Shown piece by piece: positions 40,618 through 53,020 of a stretch of DNA of 60,656 nt. The notes beneath the pieces were generated by a model that was given only the letters and a program-made list of their open reading frames with translations, searched no databases and was not told the DNA's origin. Made by a program: the position numbers and the translations under genes. Origin of the DNA: Sulfuricurvum sp. GTDB lineage: Bacteria > Campylobacterota > Campylobacteria > Campylobacterales > Sulfurimonadaceae. The stretch spans positions 1 to 60,656 of the forward strand of contig JAGXFM010000001.1 in assembly GCA_024637215.1 (NCBI GenBank), read 5' to 3'. The stretch's first letter is position 1. Every line of letters starts with the position of its first letter.

Positions 40618-41496
40618 ATGAACAAAGCAGGATTTGTCGCTCTCGTTGGACGCCCGAATGCAGGAAAAAGCACTCTAATGAACTGGATTTTGGGTGAAAA
40701 AATCGCCCTTGTAAGTCAAAAAGCAAATGCTACCCGTAAACGCTCTAATGCCATCGTCATGCACAATGACGATCAAATTATTTTCGTCGATACTCCGGGA
40801 CTTCATCAGGCCGAAAAACTTCTTAACCAATATATGTTGGAAGAAGCACTCAAAGCCATCGGGGATTGTGACATCGTTGTCTATCTCGCTCCGGCATCGG
40901 ATAAAACCATCCATTATGAAAAATTTTTGGAAATTAACTCGGACAAACGGAAACATATTATTGTTCTGAGTAAAATTGATCAAATTTCTCAAGCCGAACT
41001 CCTCAAAAAAATCGGAGAATACAATCAATTCAGTGACCATTTTATTGCCCTTATCCCCATGTCCGTCAATAAAAATGTGGGAAAAAAAGATCTTCTCGAT
41101 ACCATCGTAAAGCATCTCGATGAATCCCCTTATCTCTACGATCCTGAAAATATCACAACCGAAATGATCCGTACTATTTATAAAGAGTTCATTCGAGAAG
41201 CGATTTTCGACAACATTAGTGATGAGATTCCTTATGAATCGGATGTTATTATCGATAAGATCGATGAAGATGCCCCCGTCGAACATATTCGTGCAACCAT
41301 CATCGTCGAAAAAGATTCCCAAAAAGGGATTATTATCGGTAAAGGGGGGGCGGCCATCAAACGTATCGGGCAAAATGCCCGCGAAAAAATAGAGCGGTTA
41401 GCCTCAAAACCTGTTTATCTTGAACTCTTTGTCTCCGTTAAAAAAGGGTGGACTACCGATAAAAAATTCCTCTCTGATTTAGGCTACGAATGGTAA
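40618..41496 (+). CDS. era: GTPase Era
   Basis: GRPNAGKSTLMN, DTPGLH, KH-domain IIGKGGAAIKRIG. Confidence 0.98.
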   Translation: MNKAGFVALVGRPNAGKSTLMNWILGEKIALVSQKANATRKRSNAIVMHNDDQIIFVDTPGLHQAEKLLNQYMLEEALKAIGDCDIVVYLAPASDKTIHYEKFLEINSDKRKHIIVLSKIDQISQAELLKKIGEYNQFSDHFIALIPMSVNKNVGKKDLLDTIVKHLDESPYLYDPENITTEMIRTIYKEFIREAIFDNISDEIPYESDVIIDKIDEDAPVEHIRATIIVEKDSQKGIIIGKGGAAIKRIGQNAREKIERLASKPVYLELFVSVKKGWTTDKKFLSDLGYEW

Positions 41497-42443
41497 AAAT
41501 TCTCTTTGTTTCAGTACTAACGTTTAGTGCACTTTTTTCTTCCGAAGTGATTACTTTATACAAAAGTGGCGGAAAAAAATTGCTCGACAGCCAAATGAAT
41601 TCTCCTACCTATTGGTCCGGATCTCTTTTTAATAAAGATCTCCGTTTCGGCTATTTTGAACGTGCATTTTCACTTTTGACGTGTAACAAAGAAAAAGGTT
41701 TATTAGAACTCTACACCCCAGACGCACAAAAACGTTTTTCTCTTAAAAAACGCTACAGTGCCTTCACCGGAAAAAATGCCGGCGATAAGAGAGTTGAGGG
41801 GGATCTAAAAACTCCTGTCGGAATTTATACACTCACGGAGAAAAAAAGACGCGTTGATCCCTTTTACGGGCCAATGGCGTTTGTCACCTCTTATCCCAAT
41901 CTGTATGATCGCATCCGTGGCAAAAACGGTGATGGAATATGGGTTCACGGGGTACCTTTAAGCGGTTCGAGAGACCCTTTTACGAAGGGATGTATTGCTA
42001 TCGATAATAATGATTTGATACAACTGGATCAATCCATCAATCCTTCCAATACCTTATTAATCATTGATTCTACCCTAAAACAAGGGGTCAACGCTTCCGC
42101 CTATTCGGCTATTCTCGCAGGTCTGTATCAATGGAAATATGCATGGACCTATAACGATATTGAGAGCTATATTTCGATGTATGACCCCTCTTTTAAACGC
42201 TTTGATGGGATGAATTTGACGCAATTTAAAGCGTATAAAGAACGAATTTTCGCTAAAGATGAAACAAAAACCATCGCATTGAATCGCCTCAACATCATCC
42301 CTTATCCGGGTGAAAAGCGGAACCTTTTTTGGGTAACGTTTAATCAACTGTATATTAGTGACTCCCACCGATTCGAAGGAGAGAAATCGCTTTTGGTCCG
42401 ATTGAATACCAATCAATCGATCTCGATTCTAACGGAAGAATAA
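41490..42443 (+). CDS. L,D-transpeptidase/LD-carboxypeptidase-type YkuD protein (Csd6/Pgp2-like)
   Basis: YkuD IWVHGVPLSGSRDPFTKGCIAI, GDLKTPVGIYTL; C-terminal NTF2-like region. Confidence 0.88.
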   Translation: MVKILFVSVLTFSALFSSEVITLYKSGGKKLLDSQMNSPTYWSGSLFNKDLRFGYFERAFSLLTCNKEKGLLELYTPDAQKRFSLKKRYSAFTGKNAGDKRVEGDLKTPVGIYTLTEKKRRVDPFYGPMAFVTSYPNLYDRIRGKNGDGIWVHGVPLSGSRDPFTKGCIAIDNNDLIQLDQSINPSNTLLIIDSTLKQGVNASAYSAILAGLYQWKYAWTYNDIESYISMYDPSFKRFDGMNLTQFKAYKERIFAKDETKTIALNRLNIIPYPGEKRNLFWVTFNQLYISDSHRFEGEKSLLVRLNTNQSISILTEE

Positions 42444-42446
42444 CAC

Positions 42447-43739
42447 ATGTATTTTTCCTTGCTCCTCTCTTTTTTCTTTATATCCTCTTTGTACGCGCTC
42501 CCGTTTAACTTCATTAAAAAAGAGACGGATATTGTAAATGCTCCGACATTGCTAGTTATCGGAGGAATCCACGGGAATGAACCCGGAAGCTATTTTGCGG
42601 CTGCTTTATTATCTCAGTATTATCAAATCAAAGAGGGGAACCTTTGGATTGTTCCGGATTTAAATCGACCGAGTATCCAACAAAATGATCGTGGAATCAA
42701 TGGGGATATGAATCGTAAATTTGCCTATATCGATCCCAATGATGCCGATATCCAAACCGTTCAAGAGATTCAAAAAATCATTACGCAAAAACAGGTTGGA
42801 CTTATATTGAATCTCCATGACGGACATGGATTTTATAGAAAAGAACATCTGAATACGATTTTCAATCCTAATGCATGGGGTCAAACCTGTGTCATTGATC
42901 AAGGCTCGCTCGACACCGAACACCCTTTTGGAAATTTAAATGATATTGCGTCAAAAGTGAGCCGAGAACTTAACAACGGGTTAATTGAAGATCACCATTT
43001 TTTTGATGTGCGTAATACCAATACCCGATTTGATGACGAAGCGATGAAACACTCCCTAACCTATTTTGCCGTTTCTAATAATAAACCTGCCTTTGCGATT
43101 GAAACCAGTAAAAATTTACCCACCTTGCACCATAAAGTATTTTATCAACTCCATGCTATTGAGTGTTATATGAAACTGATGGGAATCAAATATGAACGTG
43201 CTTTTGAATTGAACCTTAATGTCATTCAGAAGCTACTAACTGATCATGAGTTTCTCACCATTAATAACGACATATACCTTAACTTAAACGATTTAAAAAA
43301 CCGTTTAAGTTTCATTCCGCTACAATCGGAGCGAAACGAGTTTAAGTTTTTTCACCCCCTGGGTAGTGTTCAAAAAAATCAACAGACCTATGATCTTTAT
43401 ATCGGTAACCAAAAAATAAGTACGCTAGTACCCAGTTATCATCCAAAAGAGTTTTGTACTGAACCTATACAGATTATTGTTGACGGCAAAATAAGATCGA
43501 TCCCCTTTGCTACAGATTTTTTTGCCGATGCCGATTTTAAAGTTATTAATAATGATCGCAATATACGGGTTAATATCATCGGTTTTACCAAAAAAGGGGT
43601 GAGTGATGAGGGGAATTTGAATGTAAAATTGAAAGATTTGGATTCAAAGTACTCCATTGATACCGCACATAAGAGCTATCGGATAGAGTTTTATCAAGAA
43701 AACCGCTTTTGCGGCATGGTTCTAGTACATTTTAAATAG
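42447..43739 (+). CDS. M14/M99-type metallocarboxypeptidase (Csd4/Pgp1-like)
   Basis: VIGGIHGNEPGSYFAA (HxxE), NLHDGHGFY, DLNRPSIQQNDRGINGDMNR. Confidence 0.85.
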   Translation: MYFSLLLSFFFISSLYALPFNFIKKETDIVNAPTLLVIGGIHGNEPGSYFAAALLSQYYQIKEGNLWIVPDLNRPSIQQNDRGINGDMNRKFAYIDPNDADIQTVQEIQKIITQKQVGLILNLHDGHGFYRKEHLNTIFNPNAWGQTCVIDQGSLDTEHPFGNLNDIASKVSRELNNGLIEDHHFFDVRNTNTRFDDEAMKHSLTYFAVSNNKPAFAIETSKNLPTLHHKVFYQLHAIECYMKLMGIKYERAFELNLNVIQKLLTDHEFLTINNDIYLNLNDLKNRLSFIPLQSERNEFKFFHPLGSVQKNQQTYDLYIGNQKISTLVPSYHPKEFCTEPIQIIVDGKIRSIPFATDFFADADFKVINNDRNIRVNIIGFTKKGVSDEGNLNVKLKDLDSKYSIDTAHKSYRIEFYQENRFCGMVLVHFK

Positions 43740-43747
43740 GATATAGG

Positions 43748-45286
43748 ATGAGTATAAGCAAGCAGCCAATCTATCCAACCGTTATATCATCTGACCCTTA
43801 TAAAGCAGATTTTTATGAAGGGACCCTCAATACTCTATCCAACACCGCATCACCCTCTTTTTCGAAAGAGCAATACTCTATATCTTTTTTAAATACCAAA
43901 GGATTTATTTCCACCCTTATCGGAATCAGTAAAAATGTTCCGGATGACGATATCAATGATGCCTTAGAAAATAAAGTTTACGAAGAACTTGCATTGGATA
44001 TGGCTATCGAATACCACTTCAAGTATATAGAGGCTATACATAAAAGTACAGAAACCGATCGCTTCTTCCATGTATTTGTTGTTGATCCCCTGACCCTAGA
44101 GGAAGAATACGCCCACATTGTTGATACGATAAAATACATTGATCAAATTATCCCCGTTCCGCTATTGCTAAAATCTCTCTATATTAAAGAACTGATCGAT
44201 TCATCAGGGGTGCATTGTTTTATCTATTTTCAAGAAAATGATGCCTTTTTTTGTATTTACAACCAACAAGAATATATCTACGCCAAATCATTAAAATTTT
44301 CACTCAAACAAATGCATGAACGCTTTTGTGAACTTTTAGGTGAGCAAATCGATCTTCTCTCTTTTGAAACGATGTTAGCCCAAGAGGGTCTGAATACATC
44401 ACATCCTGACTATCAAAAAAGCCTTATCAAACTTTTCGGTGAAATTTTTCTCCATATCAGTGATGTTATCACCTATGCCAAAAGAGCTTATGAGATTAAA
44501 ACATTTGATCAAATCTATATCGGAACCGATGTAGGAAACGTCCTTGGACTGGATGAGTATGCGCAAACCTATTTAGGGATTAAAACGACGCCGCTGGATT
44601 TTAATTACGGATTTGATACCCACGGAGAAAAAGTAGATCAGATACATCAGCTCATGCATCTCTACGGACGGCTTGAAACCGATGAGCGATACGACTGCAA
44701 CTTTACAATATTTGATCGCCCACCCCCATTTACCAAACGCGACAGCGGAAAACTTATCTTAGTGACTGCCGCATCTTTGGCTGCCGCACTTCTTTATCCG
44801 GGTGTTTATTGGGGGCTCTCGTATGTTGAAGAGTTCCATCATGCCGTTTTAACCAAGGAATACGAGCAGGTTCATGTTGAAAAAATGGACCGAGAGGCAA
44901 CGGTCAATTTAAAACTGGCCAATAAAAGTGTCGCTCAAACCCTTTTGGATGAGCAAAAAGAGTCCTATAAACAGAAGCAAGACACGTTAGTACAAGTACA
45001 TGATAAAAAAGTCAATTATCCGATGAAAGCAAAAATCATGGCCGATTTTACCCGAAGCTTCAACCACTATCGGGTACAACTAAAGACCATTGCGTATACA
45101 GAAGATCTCAATAATACCAAAACGTTCACTTTTGGATTGACATCCTCCAATACGCAGGATATTACAGCGCTCCTCAAACATCTCACCAATACAAAAAACA
45201 ACCGCTATATTTTTAATCTTGAACTCATTTCCTATAATGAAGAGCAAAAATCCTACCTTAGTGAACTTAAGGCGGTCATTAAATGA
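43748..45286 (+). CDS. Type IV pilus/T2SS-type inner membrane assembly protein (PilM-like fused to PilN-like, GspL-like)
   Basis: Long cytoplasmic N-term, single TM VTAASLAAALLYPGVYWGL, periplasmic coiled coil; operon position before PilO/PilP/secretin. Confidence 0.7.
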   Translation: MSISKQPIYPTVISSDPYKADFYEGTLNTLSNTASPSFSKEQYSISFLNTKGFISTLIGISKNVPDDDINDALENKVYEELALDMAIEYHFKYIEAIHKSTETDRFFHVFVVDPLTLEEEYAHIVDTIKYIDQIIPVPLLLKSLYIKELIDSSGVHCFIYFQENDAFFCIYNQQEYIYAKSLKFSLKQMHERFCELLGEQIDLLSFETMLAQEGLNTSHPDYQKSLIKLFGEIFLHISDVITYAKRAYEIKTFDQIYIGTDVGNVLGLDEYAQTYLGIKTTPLDFNYGFDTHGEKVDQIHQLMHLYGRLETDERYDCNFTIFDRPPPFTKRDSGKLILVTAASLAAALLYPGVYWGLSYVEEFHHAVLTKEYEQVHVEKMDREATVNLKLANKSVAQTLLDEQKESYKQKQDTLVQVHDKKVNYPMKAKIMADFTRSFNHYRVQLKTIAYTEDLNNTKTFTFGLTSSNTQDITALLKHLTNTKNNRYIFNLELISYNEEQKSYLSELKAVIK

Positions 45287-45918
45287 AATTACAAATTGAA
45301 GACTACCTTTACGCTTTAGATCAATCACTCTCTTATAAAAGTGACCGAGATAAAATGATGCTGTTTCTTATCATTTTTGCCTCATTGTTCGCTTTTTCCT
45401 ATTTTTTCTTATGGGAAAGTTCAGAATCAAGTTTCAAAATATCGCATGAAAAAGCGATCCGAGTCGAGCAAGATTTGAATGCGGATAAACACTATTTATT
45501 AACCTATCCTCCCGAACGTATTACCCAAATTGAGCAAGAAACCGTTGAGATTGAACGTCAACATGCTCTGTATATCCAATACAACACCTACATCAAAGAA
45601 CAATTAGAGCAGATTTCTTCTTTATACTACGATGAAACCGTATGGGGAGCTTATCTGGATTCAGTCTCTCGCTACGCACGTGCGAATAAAGTGAAACTAG
45701 CCCGTTTTGCGAATACGCTTCAAACGGACAACAGCTCATTCGGACACGTATTGGATATTACTATTGCATCCGAAGGGGCTTATAAAAACACCCTGAAATT
45801 TATCAATGCATTGGAGCAAAGTCATCTGGTTGTTGATTTGCACAATTTTAATATTGTTGCCGATGAGAAACTCAAAGGGGATCTCAATATCTCGGTATGG
45901 GGGATTGTAAGAGAATGA
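45283..45918 (+). CDS. PilO/MshJ-like pilus assembly protein
   Basis: N-terminal TM followed by coiled coil and ferredoxin-like tail; 4-nt overlap with preceding gene. Confidence 0.7.
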   Translation: MKLQIEDYLYALDQSLSYKSDRDKMMLFLIIFASLFAFSYFFLWESSESSFKISHEKAIRVEQDLNADKHYLLTYPPERITQIEQETVEIERQHALYIQYNTYIKEQLEQISSLYYDETVWGAYLDSVSRYARANKVKLARFANTLQTDNSSFGHVLDITIASEGAYKNTLKFINALEQSHLVVDLHNFNIVADEKLKGDLNISVWGIVRE

Positions 45919-46421
45919 AAAAGTATCTGCCGATCCTATTATTCACGTTAATGACCCTTCATGCGGCTATCCCGCCGACAAATACAACAGCCAATTCCGC
46001 AGGAGCGTATCCCAACGGCAATGAAGAACTGGCAAAGGTAGACGAACAAATTAGTGCCATTCTTCCTTCCCGTGTGGGAGTTTCAGATGGGTTTATCAAC
46101 TCTCTTCGTGATCCGATGAAAATGACAAAGCCTTCACTCACGGCTAAACCCGGCTCTAACCTTTTAGCACCGCCGAAATTAGGGAACACTATGGGTATTT
46201 TAGCCCAACCAAAAGTGATCGAGGAACCGTTGCGTCTTTTTGCTATCATGAATAAATCGGTATTCATAAGCGGAAAATGGTATAAAATAGGGGAAAGTGT
46301 CCGAGATTTTACCCTCTCTGAAATTAAATCGAATTCTGTTTTACTCACCGGAAAAAAAGATCAAAAGCTTATTTTGTTTTTGACAAAACAAAATAATAAT
46401 ATTAAAATTATCACGAAATAG
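45897..46421 (+). CDS. PilP/GspC-like periplasmic protein
   Basis: Signal peptide, Pro/Thr-rich linker, HR-like domain RLFAIMNKSVFISGKWYKIGESV. Confidence 0.65.
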   Translation: MGDCKRMKKYLPILLFTLMTLHAAIPPTNTTANSAGAYPNGNEELAKVDEQISAILPSRVGVSDGFINSLRDPMKMTKPSLTAKPGSNLLAPPKLGNTMGILAQPKVIEEPLRLFAIMNKSVFISGKWYKIGESVRDFTLSEIKSNSVLLTGKKDQKLILFLTKQNNNIKIITK

Positions 46422-46430
46422 GAAAGTATC

Positions 46431-48002
46431 ATGACATCTGTAATTAAACACCATGTGCGCGCGTTTATGTTATCCGTTGCCACGGCTACCCTCCTCATCC
46501 CTACACTTCACGCAGATTGTACCTATGAGCTTTTCAATATCTCATCGGTCAAAGGGACAAGCGTAGGCGAATTCGTTGATCAGCTAAGCGATGAATGCGG
46601 CATGAGTGTTATCGTAACCGATGAGCAGGCTGAAAATATTTTGAAAAAACAGATGAACAAAACCTTTTTGAAAAATCTGACTATTAATGAAGTATTGGAT
46701 TTGATTATCAAAGAAAATAATCTCCAATATACCTTGCAAAACAATATTCTCAAAATTTCTTATTTAACCACTAAAACGTATAACATTGACTACATTATTT
46801 CGCAACGCAAAGGGGTTGGAAGTGCCAATATAACCCTTAGTTCCAATACGAGTACTGCAGCGATAGGAACAGCTTCTACCTCTAAAAGCACTTCCGGCGG
46901 GGGAGCTTCCTCTGAATCGGGGATTAACATAACCTCCAGTGATGAAGTCCAATTTTGGGAAATACTGGATAAAGAGCTTGAAAGTATCCTAAACCGTCCG
47001 GAAGATGGGTATACGGCTCAAATCCCGATGATCAATAAAAATGCAGGATTAGTGACCGTAACCGCGACCAATACCCAAATTAAGCGGTTGGATGCCTATC
47101 TGGAAGATTTACAGAAAAAGATGCAGACACAGGTGTTGATCGACGTAAAAATGTACAGCGTCGTCTTTAGTGACGCTTCATCAACCGGTATAGACTGGTC
47201 ACAATTATACGCATTGCAAAACGTAAAACTAGGTTTCGATTATGTTACTACCAAAAACATCGATAAAACCTATAGCGGTACAAATAGTGCAACCTCTACA
47301 GGTGTTTTATTTGATGGGTTTTCTGCAAACGCGAATAACGCTAATGTCTTTCAACTTAGTGCCGGCGGTAGCCTTAATGAAGTGATTAAATTTCTAAAAA
47401 CGCAGGGAGATGTTTACTCGATCTCCAATCCTAAAATCCTGACGCTTAACAATCAACCGGCACTCATAACCGCCGGAACCGAACTCTTTTATAAAACAAA
47501 AAGCTCTACAACATCGACAAGCAGCGGGGGGACCGATAATACCGAAGATGAGACCGTTTCTTCTGTTTTTTCGGGTGTTCTCCTCGATATTACCCCTGAA
47601 ATATCCAGAGACGGCAGTATCACCTTACGGATAAACCCATCCATATCTGAAACGGCAAGTGAAATTTCTACGGATAATGCAACCCGATCTATGCCGCCCG
47701 ATTTAAGCCGTCGTCAAATGTCATCGGTCATCAGTGTTAAAGATGGAAACCGTGTCATTTTAGGGGGATTAATTAATACCAAAAACGTTAATGACGCAAA
47801 CAAAGTTCCTCTTTTGGGCGATCTCCCTATTTTAGGGTATCTTTTTAAGCGCGAAGGGATCAGTAAGCGGACGGAAGAGATCGTTATTATCATTGAACCG
47901 CATATCATTAAAAAAGAGGCCGATACCCTCAGTTTAGGTGATTTGGGATATACCCGTCTTGGCAAGCCAAACGAAGAAGATCCAAAGCCTGAAAGCAAAT
48001 AA
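46431..48002 (+). CDS. Secretin (MshL/PilQ/GspD family)
   Basis: STN domain, secretin core VYSISNPKILTLNNQPALITAGTE, ISVKDGNRVILGGLI, VPLLGDLPILGYLFK. Confidence 0.95.
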   Translation: MTSVIKHHVRAFMLSVATATLLIPTLHADCTYELFNISSVKGTSVGEFVDQLSDECGMSVIVTDEQAENILKKQMNKTFLKNLTINEVLDLIIKENNLQYTLQNNILKISYLTTKTYNIDYIISQRKGVGSANITLSSNTSTAAIGTASTSKSTSGGGASSESGINITSSDEVQFWEILDKELESILNRPEDGYTAQIPMINKNAGLVTVTATNTQIKRLDAYLEDLQKKMQTQVLIDVKMYSVVFSDASSTGIDWSQLYALQNVKLGFDYVTTKNIDKTYSGTNSATSTGVLFDGFSANANNANVFQLSAGGSLNEVIKFLKTQGDVYSISNPKILTLNNQPALITAGTELFYKTKSSTTSTSSGGTDNTEDETVSSVFSGVLLDITPEISRDGSITLRINPSISETASEISTDNATRSMPPDLSRRQMSSVISVKDGNRVILGGLINTKNVNDANKVPLLGDLPILGYLFKREGISKRTEEIVIIIEPHIIKKEADTLSLGDLGYTRLGKPNEEDPKPESK

Positions 48003-48005
48003 CGG

Positions 48006-48815
48006 ATGGAGCATTCCCTTTTCTCAAAACCGCGTGATCTGTTTTTAGATGTGGTGAACCCTAAAGACTACGTCCAGATCGACAGCATTGCACATATCTA
48101 TCAGTCTCTTAAAAGTTCGGTGCAAAAACCTCTTAAAATGATCCTTCTATTCGGCAGACCGGGTACAGGGAAAAGTATGCTGCTGCATAAACTTCACCAT
48201 GACCTTTCCAAACACCAAAAAGTTTTTATGTTTGATATTCCGATTGTAGACGAAGATGATTTTCTCCGTGTATTGGCCGAAAGGATTTTTGCATATTCCC
48301 CGCGTGAAACTATGACATTAACCCGTTTTTTAGAGATTGCCGAAGCTGTTTCTTATACAGACGTACCCATAGTTCTCCTAGATGAAGCACAACTCTATAG
48401 CTCATCGCTCATGGAAAAAATTCGCCTGATATCGGATGCACGGGTTATTAAATTTGTCATCACTTTGCATAAAACCGATAAAGAAGAGATCATAGCAAAA
48501 GAACATTTTCAAACGCGGATATGGGAGAGTATTGAGCTTCACAATGCCACTGCCGAAGAGCTCAAAATATACATACAAAAAAAACTTCTCAAAGCGAACT
48601 GTTTTGATGTCGCCAATATGTTTAATGATAAAAATATAAAATTGGTGGCCTCTTTAACCAAAGGGAATTTTCGTGAGACGAATAAATTATTATTTTCACT
48701 TTTCAGCCTCTACTGCTGGTATGAAGAAAACAATCCCGCTTTAATCCAATACAATGCTCTCAAATCTAAATGGATTGAGATGGCAGCTATCCATACAGGG
48801 CTGATCCATGCTTAA
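48006..48815 (+). CDS. AAA ATPase (ExeA/MshM/CtsP-like)
   Basis: GRPGTGKSMLLHKL Walker A, VPIVLLDEAQ Walker B. Confidence 0.88.
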   Translation: MEHSLFSKPRDLFLDVVNPKDYVQIDSIAHIYQSLKSSVQKPLKMILLFGRPGTGKSMLLHKLHHDLSKHQKVFMFDIPIVDEDDFLRVLAERIFAYSPRETMTLTRFLEIAEAVSYTDVPIVLLDEAQLYSSSLMEKIRLISDARVIKFVITLHKTDKEEIIAKEHFQTRIWESIELHNATAEELKIYIQKKLLKANCFDVANMFNDKNIKLVASLTKGNFRETNKLLFSLFSLYCWYEENNPALIQYNALKSKWIEMAAIHTGLIHA

Positions 48816-49488
48816 CATCCAAAACCTAGAACGCCGTTGGCTTAAATATAAAATCAAATTTTACGCCCCCTATATCCTTGGTCTCATTGCACTCCTGACA
48901 CTCCTGATCGCCGTCACTTATTCTAAAAAATCTGACACGGACGAAGCCAAAGAATCTATTGCATCGCCTTCCAAATCGACGCATGAAGCATCTTCTACCG
49001 TCCTTGAACCCTCTATGGATTTCGTCCGATCCTTTCAAACAACGTTACCGATGAATGAAACGCCCAAAGCTCCTCTTCAAAAAAATGCTCAACCGGTTCG
49101 TGAACCCCTCCCTGTAGCGAAACTTGTAAGTACTCCTCCCCCCGATTTATCCGATGAGAAATCGTTTTCTCTCAACCGTACCGAGTCCAAACTTGATATT
49201 GAGACACTTGAACGCCGTTTCAAAGAGACATCCAATGCGAATCTTGGACTCTTTATCGCCCGTTACCATTATGATCACGGCAACTACAGCGAAGCCTACA
49301 ATTTTGCGTTAAAAACCAATAGCATCAGTAATAAGATAGAGGAGAGCTGGATTATCTTTGCCAAATCACTCGTCAAACTCGGAAGAGCGGAGCAGGCAAA
49401 AAAAACATTACAGTTCTACATCACCGATTCAAATTCCGAAGCGGCACGTTCACTGCTCGATACCATTGAACGGGGTACATTCAAATGA
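48808..49488 (+). CDS. Membrane-anchored protein in pilus operon (MshN/CtsX-like position)
   Basis: N-term TM, Pro/Ser-rich linker, TPR-like C-term; 8-nt overlap with preceding gene. Confidence 0.65.
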   Translation: MLNIQNLERRWLKYKIKFYAPYILGLIALLTLLIAVTYSKKSDTDEAKESIASPSKSTHEASSTVLEPSMDFVRSFQTTLPMNETPKAPLQKNAQPVREPLPVAKLVSTPPPDLSDEKSFSLNRTESKLDIETLERRFKETSNANLGLFIARYHYDHGNYSEAYNFALKTNSISNKIEESWIIFAKSLVKLGRAEQAKKTLQFYITDSNSEAARSLLDTIERGTFK

Positions 49489-50024
49489 GATTTTTACTCT
49501 TCTTTGTGTTGTTCACCCTCTCTTCCTTTGCCGATGCCAGAGAACGCCTCTATACTCTTTATCAACAAGGAAACTATCTTCAAGCCTGCAACCTCGGCCT
49601 TAAAGGTTTTCCCTATCATCAAAATGACGAAGCGTATGTCTCTTTGTATGCTTTTTCATGCCTTAAAGCAGATTTGATCGACCGCTTGGCAGCGCCCATG
49701 ATGACGCTAAACCAAAGCGAAGAGGCTCGGGCCAATTCTGCATATTTTGCAGTTATTCTAATGCAAAAAAAACTTTTAATGCAAGCGCTGTATGATAATA
49801 AACCGATGAAAAATCTCACATTTCCGACCAGTTCCCATCTCCTCTCTAAGGTATTTGATTTGTATCTCAAAGCACCTCAGCCGAACCGACTTATCAAAGA
49901 GTATAAAGACCCCTCGGATAGCCGCCTCAGCTATAAACTCTACCCCACGCAGAGCAATGGACGTAAAAGCATCGCGATAGATGAATACTATGATAAAATA
50001 TTGACCCTTCATCATGTATATTAA
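49485..50024 (+). CDS. Secreted hypothetical protein in pilus operon
   Basis: Signal peptide, ATGA overlap with preceding gene; no family recognised. Confidence 0.65.
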   Translation: MRFLLFFVLFTLSSFADARERLYTLYQQGNYLQACNLGLKGFPYHQNDEAYVSLYAFSCLKADLIDRLAAPMMTLNQSEEARANSAYFAVILMQKKLLMQALYDNKPMKNLTFPTSSHLLSKVFDLYLKAPQPNRLIKEYKDPSDSRLSYKLYPTQSNGRKSIAIDEYYDKILTLHHVY

Positions 50025-50039
50025 TAAAGGATAGAGTAT

Positions 50040-51776
50040 ATGGATCGCATTACGCATGATTTGTTAGAAAAGCGCCATATCTCGCAACAACAAATTGATC
50101 GTCTAACTTCCCATGGGGTTCAAGATGATACCGTTTTAGAAACCCTCACTAAAGTGGGGGCTATCTCCAGCAACTTTATCAAACGTTTTATTGTTGAACA
50201 AATCCGACTCGGTCGATATGAACTCTCCATTATCAAAAATTACCATTTTTTAGACGAAATCTCGATTCTAACCCATTTAGCCGAAGTGATTGAAGTCCCT
50301 TTTATCGATCTCGACTCCATCGACATGGATTATCGACTCGTTGAAAAGATACCGACACCTCAGCTTAAACGGTACAATGCACTCCCTATCTCACAAGACG
50401 ATATGTATGTCATGGTCGTATTCGCCGATCCTCTCAATATTGAAGCGCAAGAGTCCATACAACGCCTCTTCCCTCGAAAATCACTTAAAATTGCCGTTGC
50501 CACCGAAAAACAGATTCAAGCGTATTTGTTTAAAATGGAGCTCAAAGACAGTGTCAAAGAACTTGTCGCCAATATTCGTAATGAATTGCGCAATATCGGA
50601 ACCATTGAAGAGCAACAAGAAGCTTCTTCGATCTTACAACTGATTGATGTCATTTTAAAAGCGTGCATCAAAGGGCGTGCAAGCGATATACATATTGAAC
50701 CTACCGAACGTAACTGTGTCGTTCGCGGACGTATTGACGGGAAATTGACCGAAATTTTTATATTTGATCGAGATATTTATCCGCCGTTGGCTTCACGTAT
50801 TAAACTCTTGGCCAATCTTGATATCGCTGAACGCCGTAAACCTCAAGACGGTCGTTTCTCCGCAATGGTTATGGACGCGGAGTTTGATTTTCGTCTCTCT
50901 ACTCTCCCCATTATTTACGGAGAATCGATCGTTATGCGTATTTTGGATAAGACCAAAGCGCTCGTCAAACTCGAAGACTCCGGAATGGATACCCAAAGCT
51001 ATCAAAAACTCCTCAAAGGGCTTCAATCTCCTTTCGGTATTATTTTGGTCACAGGCCCTACAGGAAGCGGTAAAACGACCACCCTTTACGGTGCGTTGAA
51101 TGAGCTTCGTAACATCGAAGATAAAATCATTACGGTTGAAGATCCCGTCGAATACCGTATGAATCTGATCCAACAGGTTCAGGTAAACCCAAAAGTGGGA
51201 CTCTCTTTCGCCGATGCCCTCCGCTCTATCCTCCGTCAAGATCCCGACAAAATCATGATCGGAGAGATCCGTGACCATGAAACACTGGAAATTGCCATCA
51301 AAGCCGCGCTCACAGGGCACCTTGTTATCTCTACCCTCCATACCAATGATGCCATCAGTGCGATCCCCCGTATGGTGGATATGGGAATTGAACCTTACCT
51401 CATAAGCGGCGCACTTGTTGCGGTACAAGCTCAGCGGCTCATCCGTAGAATCTGTATTCATTGTAAAAAAGAGGCCGATATTCCTCAAAATATTCTCCAA
51501 GAATACCATACCCTCATTCCTCCTAGTACCGTTTTTTATGAGGGGGCAGGTTGTAAAGAGTGCAACGGCTCAGGATACATGGGGCGAGAGATGATTTGTG
51601 AAGTTCTCCCCATGAGTGAAGAGATTTCCAGTATGATTGCCAGAGGTGCCTCCAAAGACGATCTTGTTAAACAAGCAAAAGAAGAGGGGTTTGTCGGGAT
51701 GTTTGAAAACGGCATGGCGAAAGCGGTACACGGAGTTACAACCTTGGATGAGATTCTAAGAGTCGCTAAAGGATGA
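50040..51776 (+). CDS. Assembly ATPase (PilB/GspE/MshE; CtsE-like)
   Basis: GPTGSGKTTTLYGAL, VEDPVEY, LRSILRQDPDKIMIGEIRD, CxxC..CxxC zinc motif. Confidence 0.95.
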   Translation: MDRITHDLLEKRHISQQQIDRLTSHGVQDDTVLETLTKVGAISSNFIKRFIVEQIRLGRYELSIIKNYHFLDEISILTHLAEVIEVPFIDLDSIDMDYRLVEKIPTPQLKRYNALPISQDDMYVMVVFADPLNIEAQESIQRLFPRKSLKIAVATEKQIQAYLFKMELKDSVKELVANIRNELRNIGTIEEQQEASSILQLIDVILKACIKGRASDIHIEPTERNCVVRGRIDGKLTEIFIFDRDIYPPLASRIKLLANLDIAERRKPQDGRFSAMVMDAEFDFRLSTLPIIYGESIVMRILDKTKALVKLEDSGMDTQSYQKLLKGLQSPFGIILVTGPTGSGKTTTLYGALNELRNIEDKIITVEDPVEYRMNLIQQVQVNPKVGLSFADALRSILRQDPDKIMIGEIRDHETLEIAIKAALTGHLVISTLHTNDAISAIPRMVDMGIEPYLISGALVAVQAQRLIRRICIHCKKEADIPQNILQEYHTLIPPSTVFYEGAGCKECNGSGYMGREMICEVLPMSEEISSMIARGASKDDLVKQAKEEGFVGMFENGMAKAVHGVTTLDEILRVAKG

Positions 51777-53020
51777 AATATTTTGTAGCGACCATCCTCG
51801 CTAAAGGGAAAAAAACCAATCAAGGTTTTTATGCAGAGAATAAAAAAGAGGCGCACTACATAGCCAAAATAAAATTCTCGGGGATGATTCTAAAAGTAAC
51901 CGAAGCTACCCCGCCGCTCGAAGATCAGCTGCGCCGTTTCAAAGAGACCCTTTTCTCCAATCTCCGAAAACGAAAACTCAAACAAGACGCTTTAATTGGC
52001 GCGATTCGACAGCTTGCCGTTATGACGAATGCCGGTATCTCAATCCACGACTCTTTGAATGAGATAGCCGATGCTACAACCGATAAAACGTTGCAAATTG
52101 TTTTAGGGACGATGGCGGAAGATATCAATGCCGGACACAGTCTCTCCCACTCCGCCCATAATTTTAGTTACGAACTCGGCAATCTCTCTCTTGCTATGAT
52201 CGAGTTGGGGGAGAAAACGGGAAACATGGCGGAAGCGCTGCACAAGCTTGCCGATATGCTTGAAGAGATTCGTCGCAACATTATCAAATTCAAAAAAGCG
52301 ATGGCCTATCCTCGCAACGTTATGATTGCTATGGCCATCGCCTTTACCGTTCTTATCTCTTACGTTGTCCCCCAATTCAAAGCTATATTTGAGCAACTGG
52401 GTGCCGATCTTCCGGTTCCTACTAAAATTTTGTTATTTTTAGAGCATCTGTTTAATACCTACGGAGTGTATGTTCTTGCCGCACTTTTTCTTTTTATCGT
52501 TACCTTCCGATACCTGTTGCGTAATAATCGGGAATTTAGGTACAAATGGCACCAATTCTTACTCAAAACCTATCTGATTAAAAATATCATTATGTACGCT
52601 ACCCTAAACCGTTTTACATTGGTCTTCTCCGAATTGGTTCGTGCGGGTATTCCGATAGCCGAAGCATTGGAAACCTCCATCGCCATGATCGATACCCTCC
52701 CCCTGCAAGAAAAGTTATTAACGGTGCGTCAGACGGTTGAAAAAGGGGGAACCCTCCATAACGGTTTGGCAGAAACAAAACTTTTTGAAAATATGATTAT
52801 TCAGATGATCTCTGCCGGAGAATCAAGCGGTCAACTCGATGCCATGATGCAAAAGGTGATGGAGTATTACAAAATGAAATTTGATGCCATCATTGACGGT
52901 CTCTCCGAAGCGGTGGAGCCTATTATGCTTTTGTTGATTGCGTGTATGGTTGTACTCTTGGCGCTGGGTATTTTCTTGCCGATGTGGGAGATGGGGAACG
53001 CGGTACAAGGTCGCCGATAA
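51773..53020 (+). CDS. Inner membrane platform protein (PilC/GspF/MshG; CtsF-like)
   Basis: Two GspF domains, GEKTGNMAEAL, GESSGQLDAMM. Confidence 0.95.
   Translation: MKYFVATILAKGKKTNQGFYAENKKEAHYIAKIKFSGMILKVTEATPPLEDQLRRFKETLFSNLRKRKLKQDALIGAIRQLAVMTNAGISIHDSLNEIADATTDKTLQIVLGTMAEDINAGHSLSHSAHNFSYELGNLSLAMIELGEKTGNMAEALHKLADMLEEIRRNIIKFKKAMAYPRNVMIAMAIAFTVLISYVVPQFKAIFEQLGADLPVPTKILLFLEHLFNTYGVYVLAALFLFIVTFRYLLRNNREFRYKWHQFLLKTYLIKNIIMYATLNRFTLVFSELVRAGIPIAEALETSIAMIDTLPLQEKLLTVRQTVEKGGTLHNGLAETKLFENMIIQMISAGESSGQLDAMMQKVMEYYKMKFDAIIDGLSEAVEPIMLLLIACMVVLLALGIFLPMWEMGNAVQGRR

Follow-up and report, generated by a model that had tools for sequence, protein, structure and literature searches.

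A packed nine-gene locus in MSHA order

The window, that is, the whole stretch of 60,656 nucleotides of Sulfuricurvum sp. DNA that was analyzed, carries nine ORFs packed on the + strand between positions 43748 and 53020, with neighboring genes either overlapping or separated by 3-15 bp (Table 1). An earlier sequence-only reading had placed nine genes at exactly these coordinates, and all nine of its gene identities stand, with two refinements: the first gene encodes a PilM-PilN fusion, and protein X, previously regarded as an orphan secreted protein, is a conserved component of the locus. The layout is the MSHA order I-J-K-L-M-N-x-E-G. Upstream of the set lie hslU, era, and two probable cell-wall genes. 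The order of the nine genes is kept across many families of the phylum, and is therefore not due to chance. Promoter and terminator scans yielded sites no more numerous than in shuffled sequence.

Table 1. Genes of the nine-gene locus and its conserved upstream neighbors in the window.
Gene	Product	Position	Strand	Basis
era	conserved upstream neighbor, marks the ancestral site	40618..41496	+	
	probable L,D-transpeptidase, between era and mshI	41490-42443	+	
	Pgp1/Csd4-like carboxypeptidase, directly before mshI	42447-43739	+	PDB 4wcm match, E 7.6e-71
mshI	inner-membrane fusion protein, 512 aa: PilM-like part (actin fold), TM, PilN-like part	43748..45286	+	AlphaFold model
mshJ	PilO-like, 211 aa	45283..45918	+	Pfam PilO PF04350, E 0.0016 (weak, below cut-off)
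mshK	PilP/CtsR-like periplasmic protein, 174 aa	45897..46421	+	profile homology
mshL	MshL/CtsD secretin, 523 aa	46431..48002	+	NCBIfam TIGR02519 and Pfam Secretin
mshM	MshM/CtsP AAA protein, 269 aa	48006..48815	+	Walker A (GRPGTGKS) and Walker B intact
mshN	MshN/CtsX, 226 aa	48808..49488	+	one TM, C-terminal TPR
X	secreted protein, 179 aa; TPR-like, with a beta sheet at the C-terminus	49485..50024	+	predicted structure, pLDDT 89.4
mshE	MshE/CtsE extension ATPase, 578 aa	50040..51776	+	Pfam T2SSE and MshEN fold
mshG	MshG/CtsF inner-membrane platform protein, 415 aa	51773..53020	+	Pfam T2SSF

No Pfam family matched MshI. Its AlphaFold model (pLDDT 87.9) consists of a PilM part resembling Pseudomonas aeruginosa PilM (5eou, E 2.9e-13), a long helix, and a PilN-like end; EpsL/GspL came lower among the structural matches. 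Protein X found no family in Pfam or NCBIfam, and a Foldseek search with its model returned generic TPR folds only, none with E < 0.001. Nevertheless, X recurs in loci of the window type (hereafter type A), and L074 and L075 are two further loci that have it.

The description of the machine as MSHA-like was borne out not only by gene order but also by the secretin, which scored 273.6 bits against the MshL model TIGR02519 (cut-off 250.2) and matched Pfam Secretin with an E-value of 8e-46. The genes mshM, mshE, and mshG, called for by the MSH model of PMC6668835, are all present at the locus, and the type A profiles also match MSHA genes of Aeromonas and Legionella. Among these, the K profile recovered both CtsR and the Legionella gene preceding the annotated mshL (the latter with E 2e-9). 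The same model allows the mshA-type pilin to lie off-locus, and class III pilins are dispersed in the window genome. In the secretin tree, gamma MSHA sequences were nearer to the window group than GspD, with weak support (81/66), and the ATPase-only tree did not bring the window group nearer to gamma MSHA than to either GspE or PilB.

The remaining pilus components are dispersed in the genome

Within 43748-53020 no pilin, prepilin peptidase, or retraction ATPase was found. The earlier claim that pilin and prepilin peptidase are missing from the machine is thus true of the locus but not of the genome (G000; 1.82 Mb, 80 contigs, 84% complete), where the full complement is dispersed. The expectation that these parts must be encoded elsewhere proved right, and pilins, pilD, and comEC are all present. 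Class III pilins are located on contigs 46, 59, and 15, with weaker candidates on 34 and 39, and there is one Peptidase_A24 prepilin peptidase (PilD). A PilT-type ATPase distinguishes a retractile type IVa pilus, and the genome encodes two PilT-family ATPases (451.6 and 432 bits), both above the curated cut-off of 319.1.

On contig 59, a tandem pair of pilin genes precedes priA, ispG, and the beginning of dnaB, and contig 32 opens with the remainder of dnaB, followed by comEC, from which we infer the order pilins-priA-ispG-dnaB-comEC across the contig break. This order is unbroken in G116, G061, and G098 (L117, L122, and L128), and the linkage between pilins and comEC is found with inserted genes in G053 and G009 (L124 and L120). 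On contig 15, three pilin-like genes follow a gene whose 1554-aa product contains Big_9 and cadherin-like domains; this is the MshQ-D-O-P arrangement, and comparable sets occur at L118, L121, L123, and L129. The large MshQ-like counterparts in relatives measure 1252-1412 aa and gave no significant Pfam match. On contig 39, a FimT/MshC-like pilin gene follows an ATP-citrate-lyase-like gene, as it does in L119. A further pilus-like cluster, incomplete at the contig edge, lies on contig 34 (L029:2-3522). It comprises a lipoprotein secretin related to MshL but below the cut-off (89 bits), a pilin, and two small proteins with weak matches to PilN/PilO-type profiles. This cluster is neither Cts nor a type II secretion system (T2SS); its candidacy as the true Cts, as a second MshL-like secretin, was dropped since type A profiles fit Cts far better.

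Two complete genomes, G116 (one contig) and G009, tie the dispersed parts to the locus. In both, the sole extension-type ATPase is of the window type, and both carry pilins, PilT, and PilU, so that the window-type machine must assemble those pilins. Among 121 genomes, full-length MshI was detected in 56 and PilT above the cut-off in 58, all 56 MshI genomes being among the latter, whereas 63 had neither. The resulting agreement in 119 of the 121 is not a count of independent events, since the genomes share ancestry.

Type A and type B loci differ in c-di-GMP motifs

A second, paralogous locus, type B, is present in other genomes but was not found in the window genome. It has the order Q-D-O-P-C-I-J-K-L-M-N-E-G plus two adjacent pilins (L063, L066, L093, and L074; partly rearranged in L069). 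The ATPases were searched for the pattern (R/K)LGxx..xxG, a consensus taken from PMC11731258, according to which motifs of this kind bind c-di-GMP. The pattern was detected in MshE of four of the five type B loci, two of them with both motif copies, and in both gamma MSHA references, but in none of the 14 type A, six Cts, or two g14 sequences. MshE of the window has no V. cholerae-type motif pair, only a degenerate RLG at residues 56-58. Hence, as judged from this pattern, the c-di-GMP motifs appear to be kept in type B and missing from type A and Cts.

Relationship to the Cts system of Campylobacter jejuni

The sequence-only reading had noted that the C. jejuni transformation genes run ctsR-D-P-X-E-F in the same relative order. 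Type A profiles match all six products of ctsRDPXEF, which gives substance to this link. In C. jejuni subsp. jejuni 414, the K, L, M, N, E, and G profiles found matches with E-values from 1e-11 to 1e-164 in a ctsRDPXEF set that adjoins an oxidoreductase, and CtsD of this strain scored 330.7 bits against the MshL model, over its cut-off. In the C. jejuni group (g13), the R-D-P-X-E-F locus lies beside pyruvate:ferredoxin oxidoreductase, although P was not recovered in some members, and gene product sizes resemble those tabulated for C. jejuni in PMC8308473. In-frame stops interrupt the CtsE-type ATPase gene of three genomes of this group (G107:C1:332925, G066:C40:63852, and G114:C1:400418), where the system may thus be nonfunctional.

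Cts was nested within type A in the concatenated E+G+L tree (SH-aLRT 100 for the branch uniting A and Cts), and the secretin tree agreed. In the ATPase-only tree, Cts lay on a long branch apart from type A, and in AU tests neither a placement outside type A (p 0.115) nor one outside A+B (p 0.119) was rejected for Cts. Gene order at the era site, described below, provides evidence independent of all these trees. Altogether, Cts would be a stripped-down descendant or a close sister of type A.

None of the g13 genomes examined has PilT or PilU. In C. jejuni-type genomes, the Q-D-O-P site reads FliW-proC-CtsT (100 aa) followed by proteins of 220 and 150 aa (L131; also L135, in which no proC ORF was recovered), and G098 has FliW-Q-D-O-P at the same site (L129), which makes CtsT the positional equivalent of MshD, with MshQ gone. 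Furthermore, a gene for a 145-aa pilin precedes priA in C. jejuni-type genomes (L132), and a 171-aa pilin of CtsG size is encoded beside tsaD and a Pgp1-like gene (L130 and L136). From these comparisons, the Cts line seems to have lost MshQ, PilT/PilU, and much of MshI, with MshI and MshJ persisting in reduced form downstream of era.

A Pgp1/Csd4-like peptidoglycan carboxypeptidase is thus linked twice to these systems, by mshI in the window and by the CtsG-like pilin in L130 and L136. In this family, the transpeptidase and Pgp1/Csd4-like genes separate era from mshI, and the pair is also found in L061, L062, and L071. Wall remodeling for the pilus machine is a possible role for the carboxypeptidase.

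A probable retractile pilus and its likely use in DNA uptake

Taken together, the locus probably encodes the envelope base of a retractile MSHA-class type IV pilus whose pilins lie elsewhere, serving probably DNA uptake and perhaps adhesion, with Cts as its reduced descendant or close sister. In the mechanism proposed, PilD would cleave the dispersed pilins, and MshE, together with MshG and the inner-membrane frame formed by MshI, MshJ, and MshK, would drive the fiber out through the MshL pore. PilT/PilU would then pull the fiber back, and DNA caught on it would enter the periplasm to be handed to ComEC. The MshQ-like protein may add adhesiveness to the pilus.

The main alternative is an MSHA-type pilus devoted to adhesion only, in attachment or biofilm formation, with DNA uptake arising as a later use in the Campylobacter line. 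It would account for the MSHA gene order, the MshL secretin, and the large MshQ-like proteins of the window genome (with Ig/cadherin-like domains) and its relatives, as well as for the loss of MshQ in C. jejuni, the known transformer. We regard it as unlikely, although it deserves attention, because type A is related to Cts, which is needed for C. jejuni transformation (PMC10893306, citing Wiesner 2003), and because it is type B, not type A, that has pilins alongside the locus and c-di-GMP motifs, type A being like Cts in having none. Moreover, type A pilins are linked to comEC, and the lack of Pfam matches for the relatives' MshQ-like proteins weakens the adhesin argument. Three points lead us to rate DNA uptake likelier than adhesion alone: the kinship with Cts, the linkage to comEC, and the lack of c-di-GMP motifs. 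The mere presence of ComEC proves nothing, since it is found even in genomes without the pilus machine. In group g17, all 14 genomes were devoid of a window-type or Cts-type ATPase, and ComEC was present in both genomes tested. Helicobacter has a T4SS-derived DNA uptake system, which fits the g17 pattern.

A reduced MshI-MshJ pair at the era site of C. jejuni

In most type A loci the set adjoins era, and era also adjoins a reduced gene pair in C. jejuni (L176/L177). Searches with the MshI profile gave weak matches in two g13 genomes, in which era is followed by a 337/352-aa protein (I') and a 179-183-aa protein (J'). Ten further g13 genomes carry the same pair after era, J' being truncated in one of them and I' split in another, and so do two named C. 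jejuni, where the preceding genes are rplI-hslV-hslU-era. Across these 12 C. jejuni-group genomes and the two named C. jejuni, I' and J' measure ~337-372 and ~179-197 aa, respectively. An NCBIfam search with I' and J' gave no meaningful match. In contrast, hhalign aligned I' with MshI over 332 columns (98.9%, E 2.7e-17) and J' with MshJ over 177 columns (98.5%, E 1.9e-15), whereas cross comparisons failed and column-shuffled controls reached at most 0.5%.

C. jejuni HslU and HslV are cj0662c and cj0663c (PMC3694039), so by consecutive numbering era would be Cj0661c, I' Cj0660c, and J' Cj0659c. Cj0660c has been called transmembrane (PMC6109747) and Cj0659c periplasmic (PMC5557513). A probable explanation, held with somewhat less confidence than the pilus assignment, is that Cts is a stripped-down MSHA pilus and that the unannotated Cj0660c and Cj0659c are its missing PilN-like and PilO-like inner-membrane parts, left at the ancestral site, with the remainder located elsewhere as ctsRDPXEF; the pilin before priA would be a further candidate subunit. 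Unlike the cts genes, Cj0659c was listed as essential in a transposon study (PMC5557513), which either counts against a dispensable Cts role or reflects the limits of that screen.

PilMNO homologues are also used in C. jejuni flagellar motors (PMC11870540), and the era-linked genes might accordingly belong to the flagellar cage as PilMNO-like FcpMNO proteins and not to Cts. This assignment was judged improbable: in that paper, fcpMNO is described as flagellar and as a separate operon behind miaB, whereas I' and J' sit behind era, where type A loci have mshI-mshJ, and they align with the MshI and MshJ profiles.

The C. jejuni DNA-uptake machine has been described as T2SS-like, without a recognized PilM/N/O frame or PilT. 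If it did derive from a full pilus, its parts list, evolution, and mechanism would become concrete, and two unstudied C. jejuni genes could be tested directly as Cts parts. Environmental relatives with the complete retractile version would serve as models for a pilus reduced to a DNA-uptake device.

Comparison with known systems

That the locus is a T2SS, as its GspE/GspF-family matches and the T2SS-like label given to Cts in the literature (PMC10893306) might suggest, is highly improbable and was rejected, since the secretin is an MshL (164 bits against a GspD cut-off of 351), the locus has no GspG pseudopilin or other pilin, contig 46 of the same genome carries a separate T2SS with GspG over the cut-off, GspC-/GspD-like genes, and pseudopilins, and the trees set the window system apart from it. 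The separate T2SS, probably split by a contig break, has GspC/D, K-L-M-N-like, and G-H-I-J genes on one contig and E/F on the other (L022:3-6609 and L026:9089-10915; contigs 46 and 5). A T2SS/pilus-like cluster with an ATPase 44% identical to that of the window is also found in the Fusobacteriota (L106, Haliovirga abyssi plasmid pHIC).

The machine had been considered under-described, which is only partly so. MSH systems have already been reported in Epsilonproteobacteria (Denise et al., 2019; PMC6668835); Campylobacter goes unmentioned in the main text of that paper. For about half of Campylobacterota, PMC11870540 records pilMNOPQ sets in which pilM and pilN are fused, surveyed there only as evidence that the proteins of the flagellar cage occur independently of T4P. 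These sets are very likely the same loci as the window type. In the passages of PMC11870540 consulted and in PMC6668835, neither the Cts link nor the missing Cts parts were found, and the open-access literature yielded no paper that connects Cts with MSH or assigns the era-linked genes to Cts. What appears to be new, on the strength of gene order and profile matches, is the retention of a reduced MshI/MshJ at the post-era site in C. jejuni, with K-L-M-N-E-G located elsewhere as ctsRDPXEF.

The MSHA pilus of Aeromonas (L101) and Legionella (L102) shares with the window the order I-J-K-L-M-N-E-G, the MshL secretin, and the MshM AAA protein, and an MshQ-D-O-P-like set, which in the window genome lies elsewhere. 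The window system differs in its off-locus pilins, the fusion of PilM and PilN, the additional protein X, and an MshE without consensus c-di-GMP motifs. Type B (L063, L066, L069, L074, and L093) is a paralogous sister of type A with common core genes. It differs from the window in that its locus includes minor pilins, an MshQ-like protein, and two pilins, and in that c-di-GMP motifs are retained by most of its MshE copies. Compared with Cts (ctsRDPXEF, ctsG, and ctsT), the window has an MshE with a longer N-terminus and retains MshI, MshJ, and X in full; the MshQ-like protein, PilT, and PilU are encoded in the same genome. In Cts, these parts are absent or present as reduced copies at another site. 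Both systems have dispersed pilins and the same gene order, in which K, L, M, N, E, and G correspond to CtsR, CtsD, CtsP, CtsX, CtsE, and CtsF, respectively.
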